IMG/VR virus record: IMGVR_UViG_3300046463_000145
Span: 1-47,705 of that record
Reading direction: 5' to 3' (one strand)
Length of the DNA stretch: 47,705 nucleotides
Origin: a virus
Both the position numbers and the translations under genes were made by a program. Shown here one piece after another: positions 4,032 through 25,141 of the stretch. Under the pieces are notes generated by a model, which saw nothing but the letters and a program-made list of their open reading frames with translations, was not told the origin of the DNA and did not search any database. Position 1 is the stretch's first letter; every line of letters begins with the position of its first letter.

Positions 4032-6419
4032 ATGCAGACCATTGCAGAATATCAGCGCAGCCGAGAGCAAGCAGCAGCAGTAGAGATTAAGGCGATTCCG
4101 GAAGTACGGCCCTTTGCCCGTAAGCACGTTGAGAAGCTGCAAGAAGATGGAAAGTCTGTGCTGGTCCTGCGTCAATTGGTCCGAGAGGCGGAAAGCTCGC
4201 GCCGTGTGTCCACAGAGGAAGCCCTCGCGGAGCACGCAGAAGCACTCAACGTCCCCGCATTGCAGGCAGGCCTAGACGCCTTCCGCGCAGCGCTGGAGAC
4301 GGGCAAGCGGACGGCCCGGAAGGTCTCGAAGATTGAGCACAAGGGCGGGAAGTACAATCCGATTAACGCCCTCTCTGTGGATGCCCAGGCGGAGGCTACG
4401 TGGGACGCCGTGGTTTCCTTTGTGGGGCGTATGGCGGACGCAGACCGGCCCCTAAGCGTGCAGACGCTCGCGGGCCACTTGGGCAAGCGTCTTCGCGGCC
4501 TCGCCCACGGGGCTGCGGAGTACGGGGACTTCGGCTACGAACGAGCCGCCCTGGTCCTCCTAGACCACTTCTGCGCTGCTACGGGGTGGCTGGAGGAAAA
4601 CCGAGCCGTCCCCAAGGCGTTTATGGGGGGCATTAGAAAGAACCCGAATACGTACACACTCACGCCTAAATTTATGGAGGACGCTCTGGGTGGGGGCGTG
4701 GCTGTGGACTTCTCCGAGCGTCGCCCGATGCTGGTCCGTCCGGTCCCTTGGACGACTACAGCCACGCACGGCGGGTATCTCCACTCGCCCGTACAAGCAG
4801 TCCGGGGCACGCCTAACCCTATCGGTTCCCCGGTAATCGTCGCTGCACTTAACGCCTTGCAGGAGACGGCCTTCCGAGTTAATCGGGAAGTTCTGGCTGT
4901 GGCCCGCACCTTCAATACGAACGCGGAGGACGTGGGCGGTAGTATGGTTCTGGGCCGCTACATGGAAGCTCGCCACGATGTAGCAGAGCACGTCCAGCGG
5001 GCTAAGACAATCCGCAGCGCTCTTACCCTGTCCGCCATTGCCGAGCTTGAGTATGTGGAGGAGTTCTTCTTCCCGTGGAATTTGGATTGGCGGGCCAGAA
5101 TGTACCCCGCCACGAGTCTAGTTAGCCCGCAGGGCGCAGACCTGTGTAAAGGCCTCCTGCAATTTGCAGACGGTACGCCGCTGGGCCGCGAGGGCGGGAA
5201 GTGGCTTGCTATACACCTGTGTAACCTCGCGGGGGCCGATAAGGCTATCGTGGGCGGTTCCTACCAGACGCGCACCCCGGAGGAGCGGGAAGCGTGGACG
5301 CTGGAGCGCAGCGCGGAGATTCTGGCTGTGGCTGCTGACCCGCTGGCTAATCGCTCGTGGCATCTAGCCGGGGGCTTCGGGCTTCAGAAGGTAAAGCGGG
5401 GCCGTGTGGTTCCGGTAGCCGTGGACAAGCCGTGGCAATTCCTCGCGGCCTGCTTCGAGTGGGCATCCTTCCAGGCAGAAGGCCCCGGCTTCCGTAGCCG
5501 CCTCGCGGGTGCTCTGGACGGTAGCTGCTCCGGAGTGCAGATGCTCGCGGGTATGACCCGAGACCGCAGCGCGGGCACAATGGTTAATCTGGTCCCCGCA
5601 CCCCGAGGAGATGACTATTACGGGCGGATGGCCGGGGCGCTGTCCGAGCGGCTGTATAAGCTCGTGGACTCCGCAGACGCGGGCGATATGGAGCACCTTC
5701 GTTACTGGTCCGAGCAGACGCTAGACCGGGACTTGCTGAAGGCCCCGAGTATGACGAAGGTTTATAGCGCGGGCACGTACACCTTCGGGGAGCAGGTGCA
5801 GGCGAAGACGGGAGCACCGGACGGGGAGGCTATGTGGCTAGCAGCGCAAATAAACGAATGCTTTGGGGACGTGGCCCCTGGGATGCTTCGCGCTATGAGC
5901 TATCTACAGGCGGTATCAGACGTGCTTACGGAGGAGGGCGTAGCGTTGCACTGGAAGACGCCCGCAGGCCTGGGAGTACAGCAGGCCCGCCACGAGACGG
6001 GCAGCGTACGCTTGGACACCCAAGTAGCGGGACCCGAAACCCGGAAAACCCGTACGTTTGTGTTTAATAGGGACGGACTCAGCAAAAAAGCCCAAAGAGC
6101 AGGAGTAAGCCCGAACTTCGTCCACGGGGTGGATAGCTCGCACATGGCTATGTCCGTTAATGCACTGCACGCCCAAGGCGTCCGTAACTTCTGGATGATT
6201 CATGATAGCTTTGGCGCACCGTTCGCCCAATGTCAGGCCGTATTTGATACGACCCGCGAGCAGTTTATCGAGCTTATGTCCGGAGACCTCCTGCGCCAAT
6301 GGACGGATGACGTTACCGCCTTGCTGTCCCCGGAAGGAAAGGCGAAGCTGCCAAGCCTCCCGGAGTACGGAGAGCTAGACCTTAACGAGGTCCGGGACTC
6401 TGTTTATGCGTGGTTCTAA
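4032..6419 (+). CDS. T7-like single-subunit DNA-dependent RNA polymerase
   Basis: A 795-aa polymerase (T7 has 883). Landmarks are NLDWRARMYP near residue 355, motif A ALDGSCSGVQ with the catalytic Asp at about 496, motif B MTKVYSAGTYTFGEQ with the key Lys at about 576, and motif C WMIHDSFGAPF with the second catalytic Asp at about 725. The protein ends DSVYAWF, comparable to the aromatic C-terminus of T7 RNAP. A GAGG ribosome site precedes the ATG. It closes the rightward unit and would transcribe phage genes, presumably the leftward virion operon, from its own promoters; none could be recognised. Such an enzyme with a lambda-type virion is unusual. Confidence 0.96.
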   Translation: MQTIAEYQRSREQAAAVEIKAIPEVRPFARKHVEKLQEDGKSVLVLRQLVREAESSRRVSTEEALAEHAEALNVPALQAGLDAFRAALETGKRTARKVSKIEHKGGKYNPINALSVDAQAEATWDAVVSFVGRMADADRPLSVQTLAGHLGKRLRGLAHGAAEYGDFGYERAALVLLDHFCAATGWLEENRAVPKAFMGGIRKNPNTYTLTPKFMEDALGGGVAVDFSERRPMLVRPVPWTTTATHGGYLHSPVQAVRGTPNPIGSPVIVAALNALQETAFRVNREVLAVARTFNTNAEDVGGSMVLGRYMEARHDVAEHVQRAKTIRSALTLSAIAELEYVEEFFFPWNLDWRARMYPATSLVSPQGADLCKGLLQFADGTPLGREGGKWLAIHLCNLAGADKAIVGGSYQTRTPEEREAWTLERSAEILAVAADPLANRSWHLAGGFGLQKVKRGRVVPVAVDKPWQFLAACFEWASFQAEGPGFRSRLAGALDGSCSGVQMLAGMTRDRSAGTMVNLVPAPRGDDYYGRMAGALSERLYKLVDSADAGDMEHLRYWSEQTLDRDLLKAPSMTKVYSAGTYTFGEQVQAKTGAPDGEAMWLAAQINECFGDVAPGMLRAMSYLQAVSDVLTEEGVALHWKTPAGLGVQQARHETGSVRLDTQVAGPETRKTRTFVFNRDGLSKKAQRAGVSPNFVHGVDSSHMAMSVNALHAQGVRNFWMIHDSFGAPFAQCQAVFDTTREQFIELMSGDLLRQWTDDVTALLSPEGKAKLPSLPEYGELDLNEVRDSVYAWF

Positions 6420-6950: not shown

Positions 6951-7010
6951 AAATTATTTGTCACTGTCCCGTAGAAATTAGTTGACAGCTAGGGGCGCGG
7001 GGAATACATT
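6951..7010 (+). promoter_or_regulatory. Sigma70-type promoter with upstream operator-like motif
   Basis: TTGACA at 6982-6987, a 17-base spacer and TACATT at 7005-7010 read rightward, giving a start near 7017. Upstream, AAATTATTTGT at 6951-6961 is the complement of ACAAATAATTT, the half-site of a palindrome beside the second promoter at 36016. The segment just before the -35 (GAAATTAGTTGACA) also nearly matches that promoter. This points to shared control. It lies between the divergent endolysin and the accessory block. Confidence 0.65.
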
Positions 7011-7055
7011 CTCCCCATGCGCTGCACACGCAGCGAGACAAACCGGGGAAACAAA

Positions 7056-7406
7056 ATGAGCGCACTTCAAACCGTAAAGCTGATCGACCGGACCACGGGC
7101 TACGTTTTCGACGCGTACCTGTCTGAAGGTGAGGAAGTGGACTTCTCGATTTTCACGAATGACGTTGACTACGCAGACGCGCCGGTTATCACGCTGGAAG
7201 CGGAGGGCGTAGTAGTTCTGGAAGCGGGGGCAGTCCTCACGGACGCAATCCGCGCGAAGCTCGCAGCACTCCCGGCAGCTACGGCTAATCGTCGCGCTGT
7301 GGTTTCGGCAGACGGCAAGGTTTCGTACGAGACGTGGGTACGGGTAAAGGATTACGGCGGCTTGGAGTTCTCGGGCTGCGATGTTTATAAGTGGGCCGCT
7401 GCGTAA
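7056..7406 (+). CDS. Hypothetical protein, 116 aa
   Basis: First gene of the rightward accessory block and first after the promoter at 6982-7010. The ATG at 7056, about 40 bases into the predicted transcript, is preferred; an upstream ATG at 7017 would sit at the transcript's 5' end without a ribosome site. The protein is acidic with a beta-rich pattern (VKLIDRTTGYVFDAYLSEGEEVDF, YETWVRVKDYGGLEFSG). No known domain is recognised. Being directly behind a host-type promoter, it could be expressed early or in the prophage state. Confidence 0.6.
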   Translation: MSALQTVKLIDRTTGYVFDAYLSEGEEVDFSIFTNDVDYADAPVITLEAEGVVVLEAGAVLTDAIRAKLAALPAATANRRAVVSADGKVSYETWVRVKDYGGLEFSGCDVYKWAAA

Positions 7407-7413
7407 CCTATCC

Positions 7414-7429
7414 GCCCGCTACGGCGGGC
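7414..7429 (+). terminator. GC-rich hairpin between small accessory genes
   Basis: GCCCGC, loop TACG, GCGGGC forms a perfect six-base-pair stem just after the stop of the first accessory gene. No T-tract follows, so it is more likely a weak attenuator or an mRNA-stabilising hairpin than a full terminator. Confidence 0.4.
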
Positions 7430-7461
7430 CTGTCCACCACACTTTAAGGAGACCTAAAATA

Positions 7462-7620
7462 ATGACCGTCTACACAGTAGAGAGCGAGTACCACACAGTC
7501 CGCGTAGAGCACGTAGCAGGCTGGTACGAGGTGTACGGACCCGAGGGCAGAGTTACCCGCCTTCGCTCCTTGGGCCGTGCGGAACGCTGCGCCCGTGCCG
7601 TAGCCCGGATGCTGCCGTAA
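7462..7620 (+). CDS. Hypothetical protein, 52 aa
   Basis: A small protein (MTVYTVESEYHTVRVEHVAG onward) with an AAGGAG ribosome site at 7446-7451 and an ATG at 7462; longer in-frame starts overlap the previous gene without a site. The C-terminal part is basic (RVTRLRSLGRAERCARAVARMLP). The beta pattern VYTVES/YHTVRVEH/WYEVYGPEG suggests a small beta sheet followed by a helix. Its stop overlaps the next gene as TAATG. Function unknown. Confidence 0.55.
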   Translation: MTVYTVESEYHTVRVEHVAGWYEVYGPEGRVTRLRSLGRAERCARAVARMLP

Positions 7621-7757
7621 TGGGACGCCTCCTTGCCCTGCTCCGGAGACTGTCCCGCGAGCGTACCGCCCGCCTGCTGGCTTCGGACCCGTGGCTCTCG
7701 GAGGCTACAGCCAAGCTGGACGAGTTCAAACGATTACACCCGCACCTTTTTAAGTAA
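7620..7757 (+). CDS. Hypothetical small basic protein, 45 aa
   Basis: Starts at the ATG of a TAATG overlap with the preceding gene and encodes MGRLLALLRRLSRERTARLL onward, ending FKRLHPHLFK. The N-terminal half is an arginine/leucine-rich amphipathic helix. No family is recognised. Translational coupling and the following ribosome site support it as real. Confidence 0.45.
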   Translation: MGRLLALLRRLSRERTARLLASDPWLSEATAKLDEFKRLHPHLFK

Positions 7758-7768
7758 CAGGAGAGGAC

Positions 7769-7948
7769 ATGGAGGACAAGAAAATTGTAGTGAAGCACCG
7801 CCCGCGTCCGTGGCAGTCCCTAACTAACTTCGCGTGGTCCGACCCGCGCCCCTTCGTGGTGTACGTGGACGGGCAGCTTGCGAAGGACAATCGAGGCGGG
7901 GAGCGTCGATTTTCGACAGAAGCAGCCGCCCGCAAGGCGTTTTCCTGA
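7769..7948 (+). CDS. Hypothetical protein, 59 aa
   Basis: A 59-aa frame (MEDKKIVVKHRPRPWQ onward, ending STEAAARKAFS) with AGGAGAGGA just upstream of the ATG at 7769. The layout resembles small phage proteins with one beta hairpin and one helix: PFVVYVDGQLAKDNRGGERRF then a short helix. Function unknown. It is placed in the chain of small genes behind the 6982 promoter. Confidence 0.5.
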   Translation: MEDKKIVVKHRPRPWQSLTNFAWSDPRPFVVYVDGQLAKDNRGGERRFSTEAAARKAFS

Positions 7949-7977
7949 ACCCCTTTTAACGACACAAGGAGTAATTG

Positions 7978-8523
7978 ATGATAAACGAGCATAACGCCGC
8001 CCCTATCGCCCCGCGTGCGGACGTACCGGAAAACGTAATGTTGGCGCTTGACCGTATGTGCACCCCGCTTGATGAATCGAGACTCAGTGGGGCAACGGCA
8101 GCCGCCGACGCGCACTGCATGAAGCTGATCCGCGATTACGTGCTATCAGCCACGCGTGCGGACGCCGACACAGCGAATATTTACGAACGGTTCGACACAT
8201 GGATGAAAGGCCCGCACGCGCGAGTCCAAACCATGCTGGACGCCTTCGCAGCAGGCGCGAGTAATGAGCGTGCGGACGTGTTCAAGTGTGACGGGAAATT
8301 GTTATGTCGTCACTGCCTCGCCCCAGTGGTTCCAATGGGCGACGGGTACGAGCACCGACCTGAGCGTGCGGACGCCGAAAAGGATGCGGCGCTGACGGAG
8401 ATTATCGAAGAGTTTGGGGCGGGTGACTGGATTAACAGGCGAACTGGAGCAAGTGTGAACGCCGCGTCATTTGCCCGCGCAATCCTAGCCGCAATAAAGA
8501 ACAAGGAGATGAACAACCCGTGA
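7978..8523 (+). CDS. Hypothetical protein with repeated Arg-Ala-Asp motif, 181 aa
   Basis: The ATG at 7978 lies six bases after AAGGAG. The protein contains CDGKLLCRHCLAPVVP, two CxxC-like cysteine pairs that might bind zinc. The 11-mer GCGTGCGGACG occurs four times in the gene (8013, 8154, 8268, 8364), always in the same frame, giving the tripeptide RAD followed by V or A. Segments like ERADAEKDAALTEII recall hypothetical proteins of Burkholderia-type prophages (from memory). Function is unknown. Confidence 0.6.
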   Translation: MINEHNAAPIAPRADVPENVMLALDRMCTPLDESRLSGATAAADAHCMKLIRDYVLSATRADADTANIYERFDTWMKGPHARVQTMLDAFAAGASNERADVFKCDGKLLCRHCLAPVVPMGDGYEHRPERADAEKDAALTEIIEEFGAGDWINRRTGASVNAASFARAILAAIKNKEMNNP

Positions 8524-8765
8524 AAACGCCTACGCCAGAAGAACTTGCCCGCATTTCTGAATGCTTGGCATATGAACCTGAAACCGGGATAACGGACGAC
8601 CAAATCACAGAACTGTGGATGGACTCAGCGCTTTGCAAAGACCGACACATCGGATTCGGCCTGATGATCGCCGGCGAAGTTATGGCCCAACTTCGGGCGC
8701 GCGGACTGGTGAAGAACGCCTCTGAGCGCACTGTGAGCGGGACGGGGAAAAGCCGTGAAAGATAA
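8520..8765 (+). CDS. Hypothetical protein, 81 aa
   Basis: Starts with GTG in a GTGA overlap with the preceding gene. The sequence (MKTPTPEELARISECLAYEP, then ITDDQITELWMDSALC) is helical and acidic. The end NASERTVSGTGKSRER shares RTVSG with the middle of the next protein, suggesting the two were built from similar modules or that a small duplication lies here. No known function. Confidence 0.5.
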   Translation: MKTPTPEELARISECLAYEPETGITDDQITELWMDSALCKDRHIGFGLMIAGEVMAQLRARGLVKNASERTVSGTGKSRER

Positions 8766-9030
8766 CGAAATCAGAGACTTCGTAAGCGCTCTGACAAAAG
8801 TTGCTGAGGAATATGGACAGACACAGCAACTCAGAGAACGTATTCGCGGAATCGTATTTCCGTTTATCGAAGAAGCACGCCGCACTGTGAGCGGGCAGGA
8901 GGCGGTGTATCAGGTGCGTAGCGGGTATGGTTGGATTGATGTGTCGGAGGGTGAGTATGCAAACGGCTATCAAGACTCCGAACGCCGCATCGTCTACGCC
9001 GCGCCCATTCCCGCAACGGAACCGAAGTAA
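8755..9030 (+). CDS. Hypothetical protein, 91 aa
   Basis: GTG start at 8755 within the end of the previous gene. The first 45 residues form a helix (IRDFVSALTKVAEEYGQTQQLRERIRG); the rest, from VYQVRSGYGWIDVSEGEY, is a small beta domain of a type often seen at the ends of phage hypothetical proteins. No catalytic motif is visible. It is the last of the small genes before the lipoprotein. Confidence 0.5.
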   Translation: MKDNEIRDFVSALTKVAEEYGQTQQLRERIRGIVFPFIEEARRTVSGQEAVYQVRSGYGWIDVSEGEYANGYQDSERRIVYAAPIPATEPK

Positions 9031-9085
9031 CTAAAGTATTACAATTCCCCGCCGTTATTACCGGCTCTAACCTGAGAGATTCAAA

Positions 9086-9886
9086 ATGTACAAACTTGCT
9101 GCTGCCGTAACCCTTGCCCTCTCCCTCGCAGCCTGCGGAGGCGGAGGTAGCGACGCCACCCCGGCCCAGCCGGTAGCCAAGGTCCCCACCCTCTCCTTCT
9201 ACGGTAACGCGCTGGCAGCTCCTGCCAAGGCCACAGCCAAGGCCGCAGCTTCAGAAGCCGCAAGCGCAGCAGCCCCGGCCTCCGCCTCAGACGCAGCAGC
9301 CGCGACGGTCCAGAGCCTTACGGACGCCCTCGCAGCCCAAGGCGTTACCGCGAACGTAACCGCGCAGGTTATGGACGGAACCACGCTGCACGCTATTGTT
9401 ATGGGCGAAAACAACGGCCTGCCCCCGACTCCGGACCAATTCAAGCTGGACCCGTCCGAGTGGCTTATCGTTAATTTCGCGCTGGACGATATGGTTTCGA
9501 CTATCGATGTCCCGAGCCAAGCCGCAGCCCTCGCGCAATTCCAGCAGGACCTTACGGTATTCATCCAGCGGGGCCACGTCTCGGGAAAGAATACTTTCAT
9601 CGTTACGCCTATCCAAAGCTGCGACGGCTCCCCTACAGGGTTCTCCGCTACTGAGGGCCTGCGGAACGCCGAGAACCAAGCTTCCTACGCGGCCTTCGCC
9701 TTCATTACGGGCCTGGGTGCTGGTCCCATTGTCGTAGGGCCGGACGGTAAGAACGTGGATACCCTCACGGCGGGCCACATGGGCGCAGACTGCCGCACCC
9801 CGGATGCCTACCTGCTTAATCTCCAGACGCAAGCCATTGCTACGGACATTGCGGGACGCCTGAAGCTCGCAGCCGAAGGTAAGTAA
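9086..9886 (+). CDS. Secreted lipoprotein, possible degenerate SGNH-hydrolase fold
   Basis: A 266-aa protein with a signal peptide and lipobox LSLAAC, lipid-modified Cys at residue 17, then GGGGSD, the tether common in betaproteobacterial outer-membrane lipoproteins. An Ala-rich linker (about residues 45-75) follows. Later blocks loosely resemble SGNH hydrolases: LIVNFALDDM like the Asn block, NTFIVTPIQSCD, and TAGHMGADCRTPDAYL like the His block. The expected GDS nucleophile is absent (nearest is FYGNAL), so activity is doubtful. An exported lipoprotein beside the plasmid module suggests lysogenic conversion or superinfection exclusion (inference). Tandem hairpins follow its stop. Confidence 0.7.
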   Translation: MYKLAAAVTLALSLAACGGGGSDATPAQPVAKVPTLSFYGNALAAPAKATAKAAASEAASAAAPASASDAAAATVQSLTDALAAQGVTANVTAQVMDGTTLHAIVMGENNGLPPTPDQFKLDPSEWLIVNFALDDMVSTIDVPSQAAALAQFQQDLTVFIQRGHVSGKNTFIVTPIQSCDGSPTGFSATEGLRNAENQASYAAFAFITGLGAGPIVVGPDGKNVDTLTAGHMGADCRTPDAYLLNLQTQAIATDIAGRLKLAAEGK

Positions 9887-9897
9887 CACAGCCGGAC

Positions 9898-9959
9898 GGA
9901 GGGGCTTACGGGCCTCTCCCCGACTAGCTACCCGCCTAGCTAGTTTGCTAGTTTGTTTT
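9898..9959 (+). terminator. Tandem hairpins, probable transcription terminator
   Basis: Two stem-loops lie 12 to 60 bases after the lipoprotein stop. The first (9898-9919) has an eight-pair stem with one G-T pair. The second (9923-9944) pairs ACTAGCTA with TAGCTAGT around CCCGCC and is followed by a T-rich run ending TTTGTTTT at about 9959, as in an intrinsic terminator. This would separate the accessory genes from the parA operon. Confidence 0.6.
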
Positions 9960-9998
9960 CCGTATCCCTCGTAATAGAGCGGCCTGTCTTTACTCCCC

Positions 9999-10048
9999 TT
10001 GTACTACCCAGCCGCATAGGCTATTCTCGTGCAACAATCCAACACGAG
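9999..10048 (+). promoter_or_regulatory. Putative parA promoter with overlapping inverted repeat
   Basis: TTGTAC at 9999-10004, 17 bases, then TATTCT at 10022-10027 gives a moderate sigma70-type promoter. An inverted repeat, CTCGTG at 10026-10031 and CACGAG at 10043-10048, overlaps the -10 end and start point, as expected for an autoregulatory operator or partition site bound by the ParA/RHH pair. The spacer contains GCAACAATCCA, which recurs at 36413-36423. Confidence 0.5.
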
Positions 10049-10060
10049 AAGGAATAAAAC

Positions 10061-10735
10061 ATGAGTGTTACCTGTGTAGTCGCGCAGAAAGGCGGTACGG
10101 GGAAAAGCACGTTCTGTCAGAACCTAGCCGCCATACGAGCCGCACTTAATTACAAGTGCGTGATTCTGGACCTAGACGGGCAGGAGACTAGCCAAGCGTG
10201 GGTAGAGGAGCGTAGCGTCCTAGCAGGCGTGCAGCGTATCGAGGGCCGCACGCTTAAACACTTGCTGGAGGCCGACTTGGTAGAGGAGTTCGGGGCCTTG
10301 CTGGCAGACGCCGTAGACGGCTACACGGACGTATTTATCGACGTGGGCGGGAAAGATACCCGGCTGGCCCGTGCGGCCTTAGCTGCCGGCGATGCAATCG
10401 TAGTGCCCCTCAAGCCTTCCCCTGCGGACCTGCGGACGGTCCCCGCCCTGTACGCCGCGCTGGGGAGCCTCACGAAGACCCTAGGCCGGGGCATTAACGC
10501 CCAAGTGGTTCTCAATGAGGCGGACCCGCGCAAACGTCTAACTAAAGTAATGATTAGAGAGATGGAACAATTCTCCGACCTCCTGCCGAGGTGCAACACG
10601 CTAGTAGGCTCCCGCGAGTCCTTCAAGCTGGCTATGGCGCAGGGCCGGGGCGTCTGTGAGATGGCGGGCGAGGACTTCGACGCGAAAGCAGCCCACGAGA
10701 TTAAGTCCGTCTACTTGGAGGTCTACGGAAAATGA
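10061..10735 (+). CDS. parA: ParA-family partition ATPase
   Basis: A 224-aa Walker-type ATPase. The deviant Walker A KGGTGKST is at residues 10-17, Walker A' is VILDLDGQETSQAW near 38, and Walker B is DVFIDVGGKDT near 90. It lacks the N-terminal helix-turn-helix of long ParAs, so it is the small type Ib form. It should position the plasmid prophage at cell division by binding the nucleoid and a small partner protein, plausibly the next gene. AGAAGGA precedes the ATG. The stop overlaps the next start (ATGA). Strong evidence for an episomal life stage. Confidence 0.92.
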   Translation: MSVTCVVAQKGGTGKSTFCQNLAAIRAALNYKCVILDLDGQETSQAWVEERSVLAGVQRIEGRTLKHLLEADLVEEFGALLADAVDGYTDVFIDVGGKDTRLARAALAAGDAIVVPLKPSPADLRTVPALYAALGSLTKTLGRGINAQVVLNEADPRKRLTKVMIREMEQFSDLLPRCNTLVGSRESFKLAMAQGRGVCEMAGEDFDAKAAHEIKSVYLEVYGK

Positions 10736-11127
10736 GCAAGCCCCAGCCCACAATGTCCGCAGCCCGCACGAACCGGAGCACGGTACTGGAGGACTTACAG
10801 AAGGCTTCCACCGTGATTAACGCCGTTCCGGACCCGGACCAGACCTCCGTACAGCCTCTCAGTGCCTCTCCCGCACCTCCGGAGGTATCAGCGCACCTCC
10901 CGGACCCTGCGAAGCCCGCCTACCCCGCGTGGGCCGCTACGAAGGAGGAACGCCCGGATTTAGGCGTCCCCCTCAATGTGCGAATCCCTACAGACCTGTC
11001 CGAGGAGCTACGGGAGTTCTGTCTCCTTACCCGCCTGAAGCAGAAGGACGTAGTGGCCGATGCAATCCGCAGGCAGCTAGCCGCCCTGAAGCAGGAGCGG
11101 GCCGCGAAGCACGGGAGGGGCGGGTAA
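10732..11127 (+). CDS. Ribbon-helix-helix partition partner (ParB-like)
   Basis: A 131-aa protein with a disordered Pro/Ala-rich N-terminus (about 80 residues) and a C-terminal ribbon-helix-helix domain: LNVRIPTDLSEELREFCL then KQKDVVADAIRRQLAALKQ. Small RHH proteins following a small ParA are the centromere-binding partners of type Ib systems. The long N-terminal tail would carry the ParA-activating region. It overlaps parA by four bases and the next gene by one (TAATG). The parS site is unidentified; the inverted repeats near 10026 or in the origin region are candidates. Confidence 0.75.
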   Translation: MSKPQPTMSAARTNRSTVLEDLQKASTVINAVPDPDQTSVQPLSASPAPPEVSAHLPDPAKPAYPAWAATKEERPDLGVPLNVRIPTDLSEELREFCLLTRLKQKDVVADAIRRQLAALKQERAAKHGRGG

Positions 11128-11711
11128 TGGAAGCCGAGGAGGTGCAGGGCGAACTCTGGCCGGATAACGTGCAGGCGGAGACTCTTTTCTTTCACGTCCT
11201 ACGGGCGATGGTCCAGCGGGACAGAATCGCGGAGATGGGCGCTACGGCCTTCTGCGTCTACGTGGTGCTCAAGAGCTACGCCTCTCTGGAGGCTGGCTAC
11301 AGTAACCCCGGACGGGACTTGATAGCCCGCCACATAGGGGCGTCCGAGCCGACAGTAGACCGCGCTATTAACCGCCTCGTGGAGCTAGGTCTCGTGAAAA
11401 AGCAAAAGAGCACAGGCAAGGACAGCCGGGGCAACGAGTACGCACTCGTAGAGGCTATCCCGCTGGTAGACAAGGCCTCCCGCGAAGTAGTAGGGCAGGG
11501 CGAGGCGAAGTACATCCCGCTCCAATTCGAAGCCCTGCGTAAGCAGCTTGAGGGGCTGGCCGCGTCCGGGAAGATAGGAAAGGGCTTAGAGGTAAAGATT
11601 ACCCTCAATGCGAACTTTATAACGCAGGCCCCGAATAGCGTAGTCAATAACACCTACTACAACGGGACGATAGAAGTTATCCCCAAGGAGAGCAACACAT
11701 CAGACGAATAG
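11127..11711 (+). CDS. Winged-helix protein, probable plasmid replication initiator
   Basis: A 194-aa protein starting at the ATG of a TAATG overlap at 11127. Residues about 30-95 form a helix-turn-helix of winged type: ATAFCVYVVLKSYAS, NPGRDLIARHIGASEPTVDRAINRLVELGLVKKQKS. The remainder has no recognised domain. Its position after parA and the RHH gene, directly before a region with repeated palindromes, an AT-rich stretch and DnaA boxes, fits a Rep protein. A transcriptional repressor reading the same palindromes is the main alternative. Confidence 0.6.
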   Translation: MEAEEVQGELWPDNVQAETLFFHVLRAMVQRDRIAEMGATAFCVYVVLKSYASLEAGYSNPGRDLIARHIGASEPTVDRAINRLVELGLVKKQKSTGKDSRGNEYALVEAIPLVDKASREVVGQGEAKYIPLQFEALRKQLEGLAASGKIGKGLEVKITLNANFITQAPNSVVNNTYYNGTIEVIPKESNTSDE

Positions 11712-11714
11712 GCC

Positions 11715-11882
11715 GGAGACTTTAAAAGCTTTTAATATATAGAGTCTTTATAGGTCCTCATGGGTGAGGACTATCTACCCCGAAAACGCCCATTTAGTCC
11801 TCACCTGTGATTGTCGTTTTTCCGCAACACTCCTCATGGGTGAGGACTATCTTACTTATCCACAGGGCAGTTATCCACAGAC
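11715..11882. other. Origin-like region: AT-rich stretch, palindromic direct repeats, two DnaA boxes
   Basis: An AT-rich segment (about 11720-11750) is followed by a 22-base element present twice (11755-11776 and 11831-11852). Each copy holds a palindrome, TCCTCA-TGGG-TGAGGA. A third, inverted partial copy (TAGTCCTCACC) lies at 11795-11805. Two exact DnaA boxes TTATCCACA occur at 11856-11864 and 11871-11879, 15 bases apart on the same strand. Repeats, DnaA boxes and an AT-rich element after a Rep-like gene are the layout of a theta plasmid origin. The palindromes could also terminate the two converging transcripts. Confidence 0.8.
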
Positions 11883-11886
11883 GGAG

Positions 11887-12231
11887 CTAGCGCAATGCTA
11901 GCCGCTTCCTACCCACGGCTACGAGGTGATCCACCAAGTAGGCCAGAGGCTCCGCAGTATTCGAGAGCGGGTCTATCCCGCACGTCTGGAGCAGGGCAGA
12001 GGCCGCGTGTACGCACTCGTGTACAAGCGTCATTAACTTACCGTCGAATACCCCAATTACCCCGTCTACCTTCTTCCCGCCGTCGAAGGCCCCAGCCGTT
12101 CCCTTGAAGCTAACCTCCGTGTGATACCGGAGGGCGTGGAACTCCTTTACCGTGTCCGTGTATGCAATCCTCAAACCGTAGGGCTGCACGGTGTAGGTAG
12201 ACCTCACGGAGTAGCTACCCCAGCCTTCCAC
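11887..12231 (-). CDS. Putative zinc metallopeptidase-like protein, 114 aa
   Basis: A small protein with the zinc motif HECVH (TLVHECVHAASALLQ) and a downstream Glu within NTAEPLAYLVDHLV, a pattern of short M48/SprT-like phage proteins. The N-terminal part is beta-rich (YTVQPYGLRIAYTDTVKEF, VIGVFDGKLMTL). Start is the GTG at 12231, overlapping the o-spanin gene by 28 bases. It is the last gene of the leftward late operon, so its product is probably made with lysis and virion proteins. Substrate unknown. Confidence 0.6.
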   Translation of the reverse strand: MEGWGSYSVRSTYTVQPYGLRIAYTDTVKEFHALRYHTEVSFKGTAGAFDGGKKVDGVIGVFDGKLMTLVHECVHAASALLQTCGIDPLSNTAEPLAYLVDHLVAVGRKRLALR

Positions 12232-12467
12232 GTCCGGAGCGCTGCCTTGTCTGCCGTGCAGGCGTCAAGCTGGCCCCGCTCATTGATAAGCCACTGGGCG
12301 AGGTCCGCTACCGTCCGGCCCGCTGGGCGGGGGGCGTGCGTGCAATCCTTCAGCAGAGCATCCGGGGGCGTGAGGGCCTTTACCTGCACCACAGGGGCCG
12401 TAGCGCAGCCGGACATACAGGCCGTAGCCACGAGCAGCACGAAGACGATTAGGTTATTTCTGAGCAT
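12204..12467 (-). CDS. Rz1/LysC-like outer-membrane spanin lipoprotein
   Basis: An 87-aa protein with a hydrophobic signal (LIVFVLLVATACMSGC) and candidate lipid-modified Cys at 17 or 21. The pattern LTPPDALLKDCTHAPRPAG, then DLAQWLINERGQLDACTADKAALRTW matches the LysC group of P2-type o-spanins. It would sit in the outer membrane and join the inner-membrane spanin to disrupt the outer membrane in the last step of lysis. It overlaps the i-spanin gene by 14 bases, as LysB/LysC pairs do. Confidence 0.85.
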   Translation of the reverse strand: MLRNNLIVFVLLVATACMSGCATAPVVQVKALTPPDALLKDCTHAPRPAGRTVADLAQWLINERGQLDACTADKAALRTWKAGVATP

Positions 12468-12816
12468 CGCTGCCCCCGTCGATAGCGTCCCACACGTCCG
12501 CAGCCACTACAGCCGCAGCCGCCGAAGGGTTGGCCGAGACTGCCGAGGCCAGCCGGGTAGTAGCTGCTGCGTGCGTCTTCTGGGCTGTCTGGAGGGCGGT
12601 AGCCTGCGCTTCGAAGGCCGCACGGGTAGCCGAGGCTTCCGAGACTGCGGCTGCTGCGTTCGCCTGGGCCTGCGAGGCAGCTAGGGCCAGCGCTACCATC
12701 TCCTGCTTCTGTACCTTGCTATGCTCGAAGCCTGCGTACAGGGCGAGACATACGCCCGCAGCCATTAGCAGTCCTACGAGTCCAAGGAGGACTCTTTCCA
12801 CAATAGGAGAGAACAT
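12454..12816 (-). CDS. Rz/LysB-like inner-membrane spanin
   Basis: A 120-aa protein with one N-terminal membrane helix (VLLGLVGLLMAAGVCLALYAG) followed by a long Ala/Gln-rich coiled coil (about residues 35-95). This is the layout of an i-spanin that bridges the periplasm to the lipoprotein partner encoded next. It starts at an ATG overlapping the holin stop by one base. Confidence 0.85.
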   Translation of the reverse strand: MFSPIVERVLLGLVGLLMAAGVCLALYAGFEHSKVQKQEMVALALAASQAQANAAAAVSEASATRAAFEAQATALQTAQKTHAAATTRLASAVSANPSAAAAVVAADVWDAIDGGSDAQK

Positions 12817-13079
12817 TAATCATCCTTTGTCGGGGTGGGCTGGTCTCCGAGCTTCTGCCAGAGAGACCAATCCTTATTAAGAATGCCCCGCTTCAATGCT
12901 ACCGATGTCCTCCACATCCGGGGCAGTGCGCCGAATAGATAGAACAAGGTAAGAACGAGGGTAGCTGCCGAGACATACGTACTCAGGGGCAGGGTGGACA
13001 GGCTGTAGGCCGCTCCTGCTACGCTGGTTACTACTTGCGTGCCGGACGCGGACTCTGCCGCGCGAGAGAAAAGGCCCAT
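12816..13079 (-). CDS. Probable holin
   Basis: An 87-aa membrane protein from the ATG at 13079, which has GGAG five bases upstream; an upstream GTG at 13103 adds eight residues and is less likely. Two hydrophobic stretches are visible (VVTSVAGAAYSLSTLP and VSAATLVLTLFYLFGALPRMW), with a charged tail. Small size, two membrane segments and adjacency to spanins indicate the holin that times lysis. The endolysin lies about 6 kb away, an unusual separation, and may be able to export itself. Confidence 0.75.
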   Translation of the reverse strand: MGLFSRAAESASGTQVVTSVAGAAYSLSTLPLSTYVSAATLVLTLFYLFGALPRMWRTSVALKRGILNKDWSLWQKLGDQPTPTKDD

Positions 13080-13126
13080 GTAGGCTCCATTGGAGACAGG
13101 CACGGGGCCTATCCTAGTTTTATTGA

Positions 13127-13885
13127 TTACAGATACGAGACATCGATAGCCGTAAATTCCCAGTTAAGGGCCTCACGGAAGCCGACATAGTTATTAAAGT
13201 TACGGTTATCTCCGAACGAGTCCATATTGACGTTGACGGTTCCGCCTACGGTGTTGTAAGTCGAGAGGTACACTCCCGCGTTAGTCTGTCCTCCTGCGCC
13301 TGCGCCCACCACGTAGGCAGGCTGGATGCAGGCCACAGCCACCCGCTCCAGTACGGAGAAGCCGTAGCTACCTTGGGACGTTGCCCACGTTCCGCTATCC
13401 GAGGCGTAGCCCGTGGAGCCGTAGGCATACTTGGGGTTCCCGTGGATAGTGCCTACCGGCTTGGCAAACGGACTAAGAGCGTCCGCTACCAGCACTCCGG
13501 AAGCATTAAAGACTTGAAGGCCGTAGTGGCTGCTGCTCGTGGCCCAGTCGTTAGTATCGAAGACGTACATAGTTACAGCCGCCCCGGAGGTCCCTACGAC
13601 CGTTACGGAGTACCCGTTCCCGCTTTTGCTCCACGTCATAGGGGTCATATAACCGCCCGAGCATTCAAAGGCCACGAGCGGATTAAGAGCGGAGAAGGAG
13701 AACGTGGTTACGAAGCCCGAGGAGGAGCGGGTAGAGCCGTCCGAGATGGTGTACACCTGGAAGCCGCCCGCTGCGAGCGTCTGGGTAGTCTTCGTCCGTA
13801 GCTGGAGGTTAGGTAGTCCTATGTCGCTATCAATCTGGACTACGTTAGACCCGTCCGCCGCGAAGGATTGAAAGCCAGCAGGCAT
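13127..13885 (-). CDS. Tail-associated protein, 252 aa
   Basis: A beta-rich protein beginning MPAGFQSFAADGSNVVQID. Its opening resembles that of the next upstream gene (MAAGLQIWDASGRLRVD), so both belong to a family found downstream of lambda J in many siphophages. The body is Gly/Ser/Thr-rich like tail tip decorations. Lying between J and the lysis genes, it is probably a tail tip or fibre accessory protein in contact with the receptor-binding end. No enzymatic motif is seen. Confidence 0.6.
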   Translation of the reverse strand: MPAGFQSFAADGSNVVQIDSDIGLPNLQLRTKTTQTLAAGGFQVYTISDGSTRSSSGFVTTFSFSALNPLVAFECSGGYMTPMTWSKSGNGYSVTVVGTSGAAVTMYVFDTNDWATSSSHYGLQVFNASGVLVADALSPFAKPVGTIHGNPKYAYGSTGYASDSGTWATSQGSYGFSVLERVAVACIQPAYVVGAGAGGQTNAGVYLSTYNTVGGTVNVNMDSFGDNRNFNNYVGFREALNWEFTAIDVSYL

Positions 13886-14196
13886 TAGCGCACCCCATAG
13901 AAAAGCCAGCCCCGCATACGCTGGGTATGTGTGCCGAAACCGGCTGTGTAAGTCCAGGAGATGGTATTACCGGACACTGTAAAATTTGGGCGGGGTACGT
14001 CCCCGTCGATGTAGCCCCACACGTTCTCCTGCTGGAAAGCGAGGAAGGGCGTGCCCTGAGACAGGGCCGCATTAGACACGGACCCCGAGGATGCGGAGCC
14101 GTCTATGTAGACGCTACTGATAATGCGGGAGAGGCGGCTTGTGAAGTCCACCCGGAGACGCCCGGAGGCGTCCCATATCTGAAGACCCGCAGCCAT
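13885..14196 (-). CDS. Small tail-associated protein, 103 aa
   Basis: Start is the ATG at 14196, in a TAATG overlap with the J stop. The longer frame to 14247 lies wholly inside J and is disfavoured. The sequence MAAGLQIWDASGRLRVDFTS opens like the 252-aa neighbour, suggesting a paralogous pair or a shared tail-binding N-terminus. Residues after 40 are beta-rich (GNTISWTYTAGFG). Likely a short tail tip accessory protein. Confidence 0.6.
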   Translation of the reverse strand: MAAGLQIWDASGRLRVDFTSRLSRIISSVYIDGSASSGSVSNAALSQGTPFLAFQQENVWGYIDGDVPRPNFTVSGNTISWTYTAGFGTHTQRMRGWLFYGVR

Positions 14197-17100
14197 TACC
14201 AGAGGCCCAGACGGACGCGGAGGGTCCCGCTGCCGTCGAATACACAAACCTGCTGGGAGGTAACGGTTAGATAACCGGACCCTGCGTTATTACCGTTCAT
14301 AGTTAGACTTCCGTTTTTATCGAGAACCCAGAGAGGCTGTCCGTTAGCGCCTACCGCGTTAGACTGGAGTACGCCCCCAATCTTCCCGTTAGTAATCGAC
14401 GCGTCCGCGATGAATGCCGAGGACATAAACACCTGTCCGCCCTGCACCACGAAAGGCGAGGAGACGGCAGTCCCGTTAGGGTCCAGAATGGCGAACCGCG
14501 AAGCAGCTACGAGTACCTGAGACTCCACGGTCCCGCTGCTGTTATCCACGCCTACGCCGATGCCCGCTATGTACGTCCGCCCGTTGCTCGTTATCTGAGT
14601 TTTGATTGTGTACGAGGCCGACACACGCCCGTTAAGGTCCGCGTAGGCGTTAGCGTTAGTCTGCACGGAGGCGCTAAGAGTCGAATTAACCGAATCTAGG
14701 TTAGCCTGTACAGTCGTAATAGCCGAGGCGTTAGCTGAGTCCGCAGTTACGCGGGCCGTCTGCTCCGTGTTGATAGCCGCCGTTAGGTTACTGGCCGTAG
14801 TGGTTATCTGCGCCGCTACGGTATCCGTCTTCTGCGAGAGGGCGAGGTCCGCCTCCGCGCGTGCCGTAACTTCCGAGTACACGCCTGCGTAAGCCGTCTG
14901 CGAACCCGCGTAATCCGAGCCGCCCGCCATCGGCGGAGTAACGTACTGGGCCTCCACGGTAGCGATACGCTGCGAGAGCGCACCGTCCGCAGTGATACGG
15001 GCCGTGGTCTCGTCGCTTACTGCCGTTTGAGTAGCCGTAAGGGTGGACTGGATGCCGGGGATAGCCTGGATAGGCGAGAGCACGTCCTGTCCTAGCTGGG
15101 TCTGGGTAATCTGGCCCGTCAGGTAGGTAAGGATCGCGTTAGCGTCCGCGCTGGACTGCCCGTGTGCGCCCGCTCCGGTCGAAGCCGGGTAGAACGCCCC
15201 GACATTGCCGGTAGTGTCCACGAGCCGCGCCCAGAAGTACAAGTCATAGCCCGCAGCCAGCCCCAGCAGGTTAGCGCTGGTAGTCGGATAGCTGTAACGC
15301 CCCATAGCGGTAGCGGAGGCGAAGTTAGCCGTGTGGCTGTAGTAAATCTCCGTGTACGCCGTGTCCCCTGCGCCTGCCGGGAAGCTCCACGCCACATTGA
15401 TAGCGAAGACCTTATCCGTACTAGCCGAGAGGCTGGCTACCACAGGAGGAGCACCCGTCTTACCCGCGAGGCCGGTAAGGGACGAGTACGCGTACGGGGA
15501 GCTAATGTCTAGCCCGTTCGTAGCCCGGACCCGTGCCGTATAGCTGCCCGTGTAGATGTTGCTCACGTCCAGCGACAGCCCGCCCGTAGTGCCTGCCGTA
15601 ACCCAGTCCCCATTATCCTTACGCCACTGGACCGTGTAGGAGACTGCGTTAGCCGCAGCCGCCCACGAGATGGACATATTGGTTTTAGAGATACCCTGGT
15701 CCGTAACCACGTACTGCGAGACGGTTACGCCCGTGGGCGGGGACTGCACCGTAAGGGTGTTGCCCGTGATAGGCCGGAAGTCGATAGCCGCGCCGTTATC
15801 GATAGCCGCGTACTTCCCCGGCTCGTGCTGGGTAGCGGTAATCTCAAACGTAATCCCGTCCTTCTCCGAGACCGAAGCCACACGGAAAAGCTGGGACTTG
15901 AGCGTAGCGCTCTCCAGCATCCACACAGCGCCCGCAGCCGGAACCACGGAGAAGCCCTGCGAGACGTTGATAACCGCCCCGGATACTGCGCTTACCGTGT
16001 GTGTCTCTGCTTTGCCCGAGGGGAGGATAACCGTAAGGCTATCGCCCGCTGCCGTCCCGTCCAGAGCCTTATCTAGCGTAATCTGGGCCGTACCGTTTGC
16101 CGACCGGATACGCCCGCCTGTGCGCTTCCCAGCGCGCGAAGGGTCCGCCACGGCGATAATCTGCCCCGGCTGCGCAAGCGTCCCGTCCAGCCCCACGGAG
16201 AACGTAACCGTATTGGTTTCGTACCGCGAGGTGAGGAGCGCCCATTGGCCCACCCGCTGCGCTTGCGCGCGGCTCGTGCAGGCGAAGGCCGTAAGCTGCG
16301 CCTTATTGATGCCGTACCGGGCCACGCCGTCCGCGTCCTCCACGTACTCTACTGCCTGCTCGTAGCCGTTCTCGGGGTCATTCCACGTAACGACAGCACA
16401 GGTGTAGCGAGTCTTCAGCGAGGACCCCACGTACTTAAACTGCCCGCCAATGACGTTAGCAGCCGTGTACACGTACGCCGTATCTAGCGGCATATCGCAG
16501 GCGGCTTGCACCTCTCCCGCGCCCCAGTACGCCATACCCCGGAAGACGCTTGCGATGTCTTGCAGGACCTTGTAGGCGTCCGTCCGAGAACCGATGTAGC
16601 AATTGCAGGAGAAGCGAGGCTCCAGCCCGCCCGCACCGTCCGAGACCATTACATCGCAGTACTGTGCAATCTGGTACAAGTCGTATCGGTCTATCATGCT
16701 CGCGTCTACCCACTTGCCGAGGCCGTAGCGGGAATTAAGCACGAGGTCATAGAACACCCAGGCGGGGTTATCAGTCCAGCCCGTAGTAAATGTGCCGTCC
16801 CACGTCCCGGAGTACGCGCGGGTAAGCGGGCTGTAGTTGCTGGGGTACTTAATCAGTAGCCCCTTCATATCGTACGAACGCGTAGGGACGCTGGAGAACT
16901 CCGAGGCGTCAAGCTGCACCCCGCATACCGCACTCATGGGGTAGCGTAGCTTCGCGTCGATAAGCTCTGTGTAGCTAACGAGGTTCGTAGTGTCCTGCGT
17001 GTACACGTCCGTAGTGTCTGCCGTGAGGCGGATAACCTTAACCGTGTACTGGGACGTAGCCCCGGAGAGTTCAATACGGTGCGAGCGCTGGTAGACGGAC

Positions 17101-17567
17101 GAGGCCTTACCATTGAAGGAGGTATCTACTACCGTGGCGTACTGCCCGCCGTCCTTCGATAGCTGAATCTGGTACGCGACCTGATAGCCTTTTACGTCCC
17201 CGCTGCTGGAGTCCGTCTTCGAGAGCGCACTAACGCTCAAGGTAACGCGTACGGCGGAGAGGGCGAGGTTAGTTACGGTATGGACCCACGGGGCGGAAGC
17301 CTTAAGCTCCACGCCTACGCCTACCTCATTGGCGGTACTGTCAAAGCCGCTAATCGGGTCCTGCGTAAGCGTGCCCGTCCGAAGGTCCAGCTGCTTTACA
17401 TTGAAGTTATTGGACCCGTCCGAGTTCTGGACTACGGTCCCGTTAAAATACACAGACCGGGCCGGGGTTTCCGAATTAGCGGGGCCAAAGATCGGACCTT
17501 CTGAAATGAGGTCCAAAATCTGAGCATACGCTGTACTACTAAGCGAATCATCGGCCTGTGTCGGCAT
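14196..17567 (-). CDS. J: Tail tip host-specificity protein (lambda J homologue)
   Basis: An 1123-aa protein, close to lambda J in length, starting MPTQADDSLSSTAYAQILDLISEGPIFG, which matches the J N-terminus. Later come fibronectin III-like segments (VTVSQYVVTDQGISKTNMSISW, YTVQWRKDNGDWV) and a long C-terminal coiled or repetitive region (ITQTQLGQDVLSPIQ, repeated Tx-AxxxAxIxT helices) before a globular end. J forms the central tail tip fibre and binds the host receptor. It follows gpI, as in lambda. Confidence 0.93.
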   Translation of the reverse strand: MPTQADDSLSSTAYAQILDLISEGPIFGPANSETPARSVYFNGTVVQNSDGSNNFNVKQLDLRTGTLTQDPISGFDSTANEVGVGVELKASAPWVHTVTNLALSAVRVTLSVSALSKTDSSSGDVKGYQVAYQIQLSKDGGQYATVVDTSFNGKASSVYQRSHRIELSGATSQYTVKVIRLTADTTDVYTQDTTNLVSYTELIDAKLRYPMSAVCGVQLDASEFSSVPTRSYDMKGLLIKYPSNYSPLTRAYSGTWDGTFTTGWTDNPAWVFYDLVLNSRYGLGKWVDASMIDRYDLYQIAQYCDVMVSDGAGGLEPRFSCNCYIGSRTDAYKVLQDIASVFRGMAYWGAGEVQAACDMPLDTAYVYTAANVIGGQFKYVGSSLKTRYTCAVVTWNDPENGYEQAVEYVEDADGVARYGINKAQLTAFACTSRAQAQRVGQWALLTSRYETNTVTFSVGLDGTLAQPGQIIAVADPSRAGKRTGGRIRSANGTAQITLDKALDGTAAGDSLTVILPSGKAETHTVSAVSGAVINVSQGFSVVPAAGAVWMLESATLKSQLFRVASVSEKDGITFEITATQHEPGKYAAIDNGAAIDFRPITGNTLTVQSPPTGVTVSQYVVTDQGISKTNMSISWAAAANAVSYTVQWRKDNGDWVTAGTTGGLSLDVSNIYTGSYTARVRATNGLDISSPYAYSSLTGLAGKTGAPPVVASLSASTDKVFAINVAWSFPAGAGDTAYTEIYYSHTANFASATAMGRYSYPTTSANLLGLAAGYDLYFWARLVDTTGNVGAFYPASTGAGAHGQSSADANAILTYLTGQITQTQLGQDVLSPIQAIPGIQSTLTATQTAVSDETTARITADGALSQRIATVEAQYVTPPMAGGSDYAGSQTAYAGVYSEVTARAEADLALSQKTDTVAAQITTTASNLTAAINTEQTARVTADSANASAITTVQANLDSVNSTLSASVQTNANAYADLNGRVSASYTIKTQITSNGRTYIAGIGVGVDNSSGTVESQVLVAASRFAILDPNGTAVSSPFVVQGGQVFMSSAFIADASITNGKIGGVLQSNAVGANGQPLWVLDKNGSLTMNGNNAGSGYLTVTSQQVCVFDGSGTLRVRLGLW

Positions 17568-17582
17568 ATTTCTACCCTATTG

Positions 17583-18161
17583 TTAAGCGTCTACGGACTG
17601 AGTGCCCATACTGATTACGGTACTACCCACCCGCATACGTCCGTACAGCAGCGGGACCGGCCCGCCCTGAGACGTTACGTTATCCGCCCCATTGAAGTAG
17701 TAGGAGGTCTTGGTAGCCCCGCTCGTGCCGTTATCGGCTGCTGCGTGGGCGGAGAGCATTTGCGAGATACCCCCGAACGCGAGGGACGCGCCCATAAGCA
17801 TCATCTGGCCCGCGTACGGGTTCCCGAAGTAGGCGGAGACTGCCCCGGCTACAAAGAGGACGGCCCCGGCGATTGCCGCGAAGATACCGCCCTTACGGCC
17901 CGTAACGAGGGGCGCGATACGAATATCGTTATCCCCGCTGGGGTGCGATAGCTGGGTTTCATCGATGTTCCGCTTACCTACGAAGACCGCGTAGCTAACG
18001 CCCCGGTCCTTACTCGTCATAAGCTCCCGCTCGAAGCCGGGGACCATGCGGATTAGCGCGCGGAGGGCGTCCCGAGGGGAACCAACCACGAACCGATGTA
18101 CCCGCCCGAACTTCGCCCCGAGCTTGCTGTACAGGCGGATTGTTCTAACTTGGTCTGTCAA
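17583..18161 (-). CDS. I: Tail assembly protein I
   Basis: A 192-aa protein like lambda gpI: TIRLYSKLGAKFGRVHRF at the start, SYAVFVGKRNIDETQL, then a Gly/Ala hydrophobic region (IFAAIAGAVLFVAGAVSAYFG) and GGPVPLLYGRMRVGSTVISMG at the end. gpI is needed for assembly of the tail tip but is not found in the finished particle. Start is TTG at 18161 with AAGGAGG upstream, overlapping the K-type peptidase gene by four bases. Confidence 0.88.
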   Translation of the reverse strand: MTDQVRTIRLYSKLGAKFGRVHRFVVGSPRDALRALIRMVPGFERELMTSKDRGVSYAVFVGKRNIDETQLSHPSGDNDIRIAPLVTGRKGGIFAAIAGAVLFVAGAVSAYFGNPYAGQMMLMGASLAFGGISQMLSAHAAADNGTSGATKTSYYFNGADNVTSQGGPVPLLYGRMRVGSTVISMGTQSVDA

Positions 18162-18556
18162 GGGGCCTCCTTATATCTGAGAATGTGCGTAACCCGGTCC
18201 CGGTATCGGGGCAGGCCCTCTCGCATAGAGAGCCGCTTGGGCAAGTGGTGTAGAAGCGTATCTCCACCCAAGTACACCCCCGAGTGGTTAGGGGCGTGGT
18301 TCCGGCTGGCTACTCGCATAAGGAGCATATCCCCGACCGCTAGAGGAGCATCGAGGGGCACGGGCACGAAGCCCGCCTCCGCGTAATAGGAGGTAAAGGC
18401 GTTCCCGTCTCCGTCCGCTGTCTCTGCGCCGCGCGGGAAGTCCCGGAGGACAATCCCCCGCGTCTGCCAGTACCAGCGCCTTACGAGGCCGTAGCAGTCG
18501 TCCGAGCCGTAACGGTACTCGCAGCCCACTAGTGGGGCCTCAAGCTCCGAACTCAT
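18158..18556 (-). CDS. NlpC/P60-family tail tip peptidase (C-terminal half of lambda K)
   Basis: A 132-aa papain-like domain starting MSSELEAPLVGCEYRYG at the ATG at 18556. The catalytic Cys is in DDCYGLVRRWY and the His in NHSGVYLGGDTLLHH, with ASRN just before. In lambda K this domain follows a JAB domain in one chain; here the JAB domain is a separate gene overlapping by 17 bases in another frame. It probably trims host peptidoglycan at DNA entry or acts in tail tip assembly. Confidence 0.88.
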   Translation of the reverse strand: MSSELEAPLVGCEYRYGSDDCYGLVRRWYWQTRGIVLRDFPRGAETADGDGNAFTSYYAEAGFVPVPLDAPLAVGDMLLMRVASRNHAPNHSGVYLGGDTLLHHLPKRLSMREGLPRYRDRVTHILRYKEAP

Positions 18557-18872
18557 ACCAGCCCCGCACGCCGTCCGGCCCGAGGGCCACAATTACCCAA
18601 GGAAGGCCGGTAGCCCCCTGGGCAGAGAAGTCCGCCCCACTGGGGAACGCTGCCCCGTCCGGGTGCGAGTGGACCACCTCCGTAATATCCCCGAGGTCTT
18701 CCGCTGCTGCCCAGTCTGCGGGCGAGATAGCGAAGGCTTCCCGAGGGGTGGAGGAGGTATTGAGGCAGGGCACGTACCGTGCTGCGTCGATAACCAGCCC
18801 GCAGGACTCCTCCGGATAGCACGCGCGGGCGTGCCGGGCGATTGCGTTCTGTAGATAAATCGGGAGGTGCAT
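18540..18872 (-). CDS. JAB/MPN metalloprotease-domain tail protein (N-terminal half of lambda K)
   Basis: A 110-aa Mov34/JAB1 domain with the metal motif HSHPDGAAFPSGAD (HxHP, then SxxD) and the early Glu within YPEESCGLVID. It corresponds to the N-terminal domain of lambda gpK. It starts at the ATG overlapping the stop of the L-type gene. Residues needed for zinc binding are intact, so it may be an active isopeptidase-like enzyme in the tail tip. The split from the NlpC domain is real in this sequence: the two frames differ. Confidence 0.88.
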   Translation of the reverse strand: MHLPIYLQNAIARHARACYPEESCGLVIDAARYVPCLNTSSTPREAFAISPADWAAAEDLGDITEVVHSHPDGAAFPSGADFSAQGATGLPWVIVALGPDGVRGWYEFGA

Positions 18873-25140: not shown

Positions 25141-25141
25141 A

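Follow-up and report, generated by a model that had tools for sequence, protein, structure and literature searches.

A partition operon and an exchangeable candidate replicon with palindromic iterons in a probable phage-plasmid

The IMG/VR virus record IMGVR_UViG_3300046463_000145 is complete at 47,705 bp, and this whole stretch of DNA is called the window below. It has a direct terminal repeat of 127 bp, usually a sign of circular assembly only. Within it lies a short operon for a ParA ATPase, a small partner protein resembling ribbon-helix-helix (RHH) proteins and a winged helix-turn-helix (wHTH) protein, followed by palindromic repeats and binding boxes for DnaA (Table 1). The sequence makes it very probable that this region serves plasmid maintenance in a temperate phage-plasmid. 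The wHTH gene and the repeats would be an initiator with its origin of vegetative replication (oriV), and ParA with its partner a type Ib-like partition cassette, both serving a plasmid prophage state.

The evidence that carries this reading is a natural exchange. Two sister contigs (L002 and L003), close relatives in IMG/VR that were assembled independently from two separate metagenomes, have a ParA that is 99% identical to that of the window. Aligned with blastn, L002 is 96.6% identical to the window over positions 8996-11135, shows no match after that, and is 88% identical again from 11874. What is replaced in between is the wHTH gene with the palindromes and the DnaA boxes. In their place, both sisters have a minus-strand gene for a Rep_3 initiator (PF01051 1.4e-32, PF21205 4.7e-12), three 21-bp tandem iterons and one DnaA box. 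This Rep_3 shares 64% identity with the Rep of the 20-kb Caballeronia plasmid p2. The incoming cassette also brings a small open reading frame (ORF) starting MEPYIQPTWKVTYVNND..., which separates the partner gene from rep (L002 7067-7250).

Two further relatives (L007 and L008) also break, at 11142, and resume at 11886. They have a wHTH that is 29-31% identical, and other palindromes. In searches of whole records, Rep_3 turned up in L002 and L003 only and the wHTH was confined to the window and the remaining relatives; the two are never found together. Because the cassette is replaced by a canonical initiator and its iterons while the partition genes stay, it is most simply itself a unit of initiator and origin. 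That near-identical phages have apparently exchanged their starter and origin part for a textbook plasmid one suggests that this virus can live in bacteria as a plasmid, and can swap replicons. The wHTH gene, iterons and DnaA boxes would then form a single exchangeable cassette. A near-isogenic exchange of plasmid replicons within a phage lineage, with constant partition genes, also makes incompatibility escape by cassette swapping directly testable.

The three genes are plus-strand ORFs whose neighbours overlap by 1-4 bp, which bears out the single operon described in an earlier note on this DNA. ParA lacks an N-terminal HTH, and its Walker A motif KGGTGKS begins at residue 10, which is the short type Ib form; the motif aligns with plasmid ParAs. 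The partner has no Pfam match of its own, so its RHH label rests on homology and sequence pattern: in L031, the homologous protein passes the cutoff of TacA1 (PF08681), a family of RHH antitoxins. At every ParA-bearing locus examined, the partner gene separates the ParA gene from the wHTH gene, and its product is probably a centromere-binding adaptor.

The HTH_36 score of the wHTH protein is 33.7 bits, against a gathering cutoff of 25, and relatives score 37-50 bits. Its matches in PHROG include O-like and DnaD-like replication initiators. No Rep_3 (PF01051) match exists anywhere in the window, and a PF01051 scan together with annotation searches recognised no other plasmid initiator besides the wHTH. 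The O-like and DnaD-like matches, and the place of the gene in a phage genome, also fit a lytic initiator and origin in the manner of lambda O, instead of a plasmid-stage replicon. This is quite unlikely, however. The phage has a separate T7-like set of plus-strand genes (single-subunit RNA polymerase, primase, DnaB-like helicase, PolA-type polymerase, ligase and exonuclease), while the wHTH module is coupled to ParA, is also found in a plasmid without annotated phage genes, and has been exchanged for a plasmid Rep_3.

Downstream of the wHTH gene, all the elements described earlier were found: an AT-rich stretch, two 22-base repeats, an inverted partial copy and two exact DnaA boxes. The two identical 22-mers are at 11755-11776 and 11831-11852, and the genome holds no further copy when up to 6 mismatches are allowed. 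The palindromes proper are somewhat shorter, at 18 and 16 bp. Exact copies of TTATCCACA begin at 11856 and 11871 and nowhere else in the 47.7 kb, where 0.14 are expected; none of 100 shuffles had two. The palindrome array sits between the convergent 3' ends of genes, in a region with no promoter-like or terminator-like match, a setting that fits an origin better than an operator. Terminators between the convergent genes were considered, and ruled out by the same lack of a terminator-like match.

It could also be that the wHTH is a transcriptional regulator, either a prophage repressor or an autoregulator, with the palindromes as its operators. Matches to HTH_36 and to generic MarR/GntR-like wHTH proteins would allow this, and palindromic sites are typical of regulator dimers. 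But the sites are 3' of the gene and not at a promoter, DnaA boxes adjoin them, and the block is replaced by a Rep_3 replicon. A regulator is therefore very improbable, and the known repressor family without replication role that the earlier note had named as the contrary outcome is not what was found.

As a mechanism for the favoured initiator and origin, the wHTH would bind as a dimer to some three palindromic iterons that closely follow its gene, and host DnaA would bind the adjacent TTATCCACA boxes. Together they may open the AT-rich stretch and load the host replisome. The prophage would then replicate as a plasmid under copy control, at low copy number, and the ParA and RHH-like pair would segregate this episome. 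The phage's own T7-like replication genes would act separately, for lytic growth.

The origin architecture is not confined to the window. At 15 loci, a 250-bp segment across the 3' end of the wHTH gene was compared with control windows. Palindromes of 15-19 bp are present within about 220 bp downstream in 13 of the 15 loci (26% of control windows), and seven loci have at least two (3.4% of controls). An exact DnaA box is found in 9 of 15, against 0.15% of controls. Binomial p-values for these counts are optimistic, because the 15 loci are related. The palindromes persist in wHTH homologues without ParA.

Each subgroup has its own palindrome. The window has TCCTCA-4-TGAGGA, where the Polaromonas plasmid pA29BJ2 has CCCTTA-4-TAAGGG and L032/L033 have GTGTCA-4-TGACAC. 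Others are GGTCTCTGGTAGAGACC in L028, GGTGCA types in L024 and GGTATCAGTCTGATACC in the Acinetobacter baumannii plasmid pRBH2-3. Neighbouring palindromes are 32-33 bp apart from centre to centre, about three helical turns, in the window, L012, L024, L028, L032 and L033; other spacings also occur. In the few cases available, a shared recognition helix goes with a shared palindrome: SKAQVHRAL with GGTCTC in L029/L030, and SKSQVLREL with GTGTCA in L032/L033. This pattern of protein-to-iteron recognition is offered for testing.

The wHTH protein has no match among named phages, and the stretch 7000-14000 has zero DNA matches among 50,697 named phage records. Alignment-based searches did find further viral contigs, one Pandoraea contig with a distant homologue, and matches in a further five of 399 Burkholderiales genomes. 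Three operon-bearing contigs (those of L031, L032 and L036) have an N4-type capsid (TIGR04387).

The earlier note had proposed looking for homologous modules in plasmids, and two such plasmids were found, which with the Rep_3 exchange strongly supports its view of a Rep-like protein and a DnaA-box origin in a module for plasmid maintenance. The first, pA29BJ2 (104 kb), has the order ParA, partner, wHTH, with palindromes downstream. It has no annotated phage genes. No other Rep was found in it either, whether in its annotation, among ten hypothetical proteins tested against Pfam, among the unannotated ORFs inspected or by a PF01051 scan. Like the window it has exact DnaA boxes, with three palindromes CCCTTA-NNNN-TAAGGG at 32-33 bp, and its wHTH is 30% identical over 97%. 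Unlike the window it is not a phage, its palindrome sequence is another one, and integrase-type genes and IS elements surround the module.

The second plasmid, pRBH2-3 (75 kb, NZ_CP110465.1; L014/L017), also has the ParA, partner, wHTH operon and is an N4-like element with a TIGR04387 capsid. For 18.6 kb of its length it matches the Acinetobacter sewage phage vB_IME_Ab2712 (OK149216.1; L064), a record marked UNVERIFIED, with 98.4% identity over 94%, and the wHTH is identical. One carrier of this wHTH replicon is thus known as both virion and plasmid. It differs from the window in its podovirus (Schitoviridae) backbone, in a wHTH that is about 24-35% identical to family members, and in having no exact DnaA box adjoining. 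Within the compared 18.6 kb the two are almost one element, an N4-like phage-plasmid whose plasmid record is typed as non-mobilizable only. PLSDB typing gives no replicon type for pA29BJ2 or pRBH2-3. Such a replicon, which typing by Rep family could miss, would link phages with T7-like transcription and replication genes, as well as N4-like phages, to life as a plasmid. Polaromonas pW11NP1, reported to have a novel Rep, was set aside: it is described in that report (PMC6015842) as pNI10-like, and it is absent from the wHTH search results.

Of the rival readings, the strongest has a tripartite partition system like that of the archaeal plasmid pNOB8. Here the wHTH would be a second centromere-binding protein of AspA or TubR type, the palindromes its centromere, and the RHH-like protein an adaptor to ParA. 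The nearest structures include TubR (1e-4) and AspA (0.008), which both bind plasmid centromeres; the operon has three genes including ParA, and the sites are palindromic. The fold scores are unspecific, however, with many MarR/Fur-type regulators scoring alike. In addition, L002 and L003 keep ParA and its partner while losing the wHTH and the palindromes and gaining a Rep_3 replicon. They retain no wHTH family member at all, so that what an AspA-type tripartite system requires is missing there. It also does not fit that palindromes occur in homologues without ParA, or that exact DnaA boxes adjoin the palindromes in 9 of 15 loci. Were the wHTH not counted as an initiator, the window would have no recognised plasmid initiator. 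Tripartite partition is therefore unlikely.

Some observations do weigh against a phage-plasmid with a wHTH initiator. Profile searches with the wHTH in PDB and NCBIfam gave generic wHTH matches only, and no known Rep; the nearest fold and profile matches are generic transcription factors along with TubR and AspA. The predicted AlphaFold structures have low confidence (pLDDT 55-63), which is why fold matches were not used for the Rep assignment. Homologues without ParA in apparently chromosomal contigs indicate that the wHTH can occur apart from plasmids. The phage has no recognised CI-like repressor, so its temperance is a presumption, and a tyrosine recombinase is present that could integrate the phage. 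Of the earlier phage-plasmid claim, the gene content stands, with a complete virion set next to plasmid replication and partition genes. The plasmid state of the present phage, of which no lysogen was found, is something we infer; the known extrachromosomal carrier is pRBH2-3/vB_IME_Ab2712 only.

Plasmid initiators with an HTH_36 domain are not new. They have been described in Paracoccus (pAES7, pMARC3, pMOS2 and pAES1), where pMOS2 has inverted repeats overlapping its iterons, and the REP regions of pAES7 and pAES1 have been cloned into shuttle plasmids (PMC3832669). Compared by description, these replicons similarly have a single wHTH (PF13730) Rep and few adjoining iteron-like repeats. Unlike those of the window, the Paracoccus repeats are described as direct and 18-39 bp long, and a link to ParA and an RHH protein is not described there (PMC3832669).

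Alternative replicons beside a partition cassette are also known. In extrachromosomal mycobacteriophages of cluster A, parABS is accompanied by origins of alternative kinds, RepA or RNA-based (Wetzel et al. 2020, PMC7157519). As in the present phage, the partition cassette adjoins a replication cassette that comes in alternative types among relatives. The hosts, the ParB/parS type and the RepA proteins are different however, parABS stands there in place of an integration cassette, and the RepA origins had no identified repeats (PMC7157519). Glacier viromes have also yielded phage-plasmids with partition genes (PMC4490671). The Rep_3 replicons of the sister phages occupy the same slot and pair their iterons with a DnaA box, but they have a two-domain Rep3_N/Rep3_C initiator, direct 21-bp iterons and the opposite orientation. 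Because of such precedents, the wHTH replicon is not categorically new, and the new plasmid replicon type suggested earlier is better called a distinct variant.

A 1.3-kb Klebsiella plasmid, pNCRE-61-1.3 (L063), has as its sole annotated gene a wHTH with RepL and HTH_36 matches. Upstream of this gene (L063 418-571) are palindromes such as GTCTCATCAGCTATGAGAC (GTCTCA), whose half-site resembles the one in the phage family. Here the palindromes precede the wHTH gene, where in the window they follow it. When the wHTH family is compared by hhalign with two small-plasmid HTH proteins, only the wHTH core aligns, with 95-96% probability, which may reflect a common fold only.

It is tempting to go further, and to see ParA, RHH-like partner, wHTH, palindromic iterons and DnaA box as a distinct and widely shared replicon class. 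Its initiator cassette would move as a unit among siphoviruses with a T7-like RNA polymerase, N4-like podoviruses and plasmids, the wHTH recognition helix would appear to set the origin sequence, and the sites would be phased at about three helical turns. This is a tentative proposal, somewhat more doubtful than probable. If true, it would amount to an incompatibility code that can be read from sequence.

Table 1 Coordinates of the features discussed, as positions in the window.
Feature	Position	Strand	Remarks
Short CTAG/CTAGTTTG repeats upstream of parA	9936..9955		kept in L002-L008, yet scored terminator-like
parA, 224 aa, small ParA/MipZ-type ATPase, type Ib-like	10061..10735	+	PHROG 164 ParA-like partition protein 2.9e-30; Pfam AAA_31 3.9e-11, CbiA/MipZ
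RHH-like partner, 131 aa	10732..11127	+	4-bp overlap with parA, 1-bp overlap with the wHTH gene
wHTH, 194 aa, replication initiator candidate	11127..11711	+	Pfam HTH_36 (PF13730) 3.2e-8; best PHROG 270 'replication initiation protein' 3.6e-10
Exchangeable replicon block (wHTH, palindromes, DnaA boxes)	11136..11873		blastn breakpoints in L002, L007/L008
AT-rich stretch, candidate unwinding element	11716..11755		75% AT; only 0.04% of the genome's 40-bp windows equally AT-rich
Palindromic iteron 1, 18 bp, GTCCTCATGGGTGAGGAC	11754..11771		overlaps 22-mer 11755-11776; identical in L004-L006
Degenerate iteron 2 / inverted half site GTCCTCACCTGTGATTGT	11797..11814		inverted partial copy given as 11795-11810; centre 33 bp from that of iteron 3
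Palindromic iteron 3, 16 bp, TCCTCATGGGTGAGGA	11831..11846		inside 22-mer 11831-11852
DnaA box TTATCCACA	11856..11864	+	exact box
DnaA box TTATCCACA	11871..11879	+	exact box; module ends here at 11879
Tyrosine recombinase, 299 aa	34865..35764	-	PF00589 5.1e-12; PHROG 1 integrase; weak XerC-like matches

An inverted repeat had also been noted at the promoter of the operon. It does exist (10024-10031 / 10043-10050, TTCTCGTG...CACGAGAA), but it is lost in L004-L008, and for that reason is probably not functional. As a parS site or operator it was rejected, not being conserved among relatives. The CTAG/CTAGTTTG repeats further upstream are tentatively either parS or the terminator of the preceding gene.

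Five Burkholderiales contigs (L042-L046), some clearly chromosomal, have wHTH homologues with no ParA nearby. Some of these are beside integrase-like genes and have palindromes, for example GTATCAGGAGCTGATAC in L046. They are possibly integrative elements that replicate after excision.

The phage itself is a mosaic. Its minus strand has the lambda-like head and tail genes of a siphovirus (terminase, portal, capsid, protease, tape measure and J-type tail), a complete virion set, and the genome also has an Rz1-like lysis gene. Across 4032-6419, 39767-47285 and 14196-33569, this virion module is joined to the T7-like RNA polymerase and replication genes. Xanthomonas phage Xp10 has a comparable layout, to which the present phage adds its plasmid maintenance genes. 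No tRNA genes were found within the window.

The tyrosine recombinase could be an integrase or a dimer resolvase; Cre of phage P1, which acts in dimer resolution, is a precedent for the latter. Nothing convincing was found around the gene in the way of a res-like or att-like site. It is kept in the sister phage G001 (97% identity) and in G004/G005 (34%). The region around it, 34865-36430, has a low GC content of 45-52%, compared to about 59%, and its upstream leader is conserved in G001.

Two smaller genes can also be mentioned. A gene at 43935-44384, within the replication gene cluster, matches PHROG 4786 'cysteine dioxygenase' at 2e-39. Immediately upstream of the par operon, positions 9086-9886 encode a lipoprotein-like secreted protein that belongs with PHROG 8011 (5e-45, function unknown).

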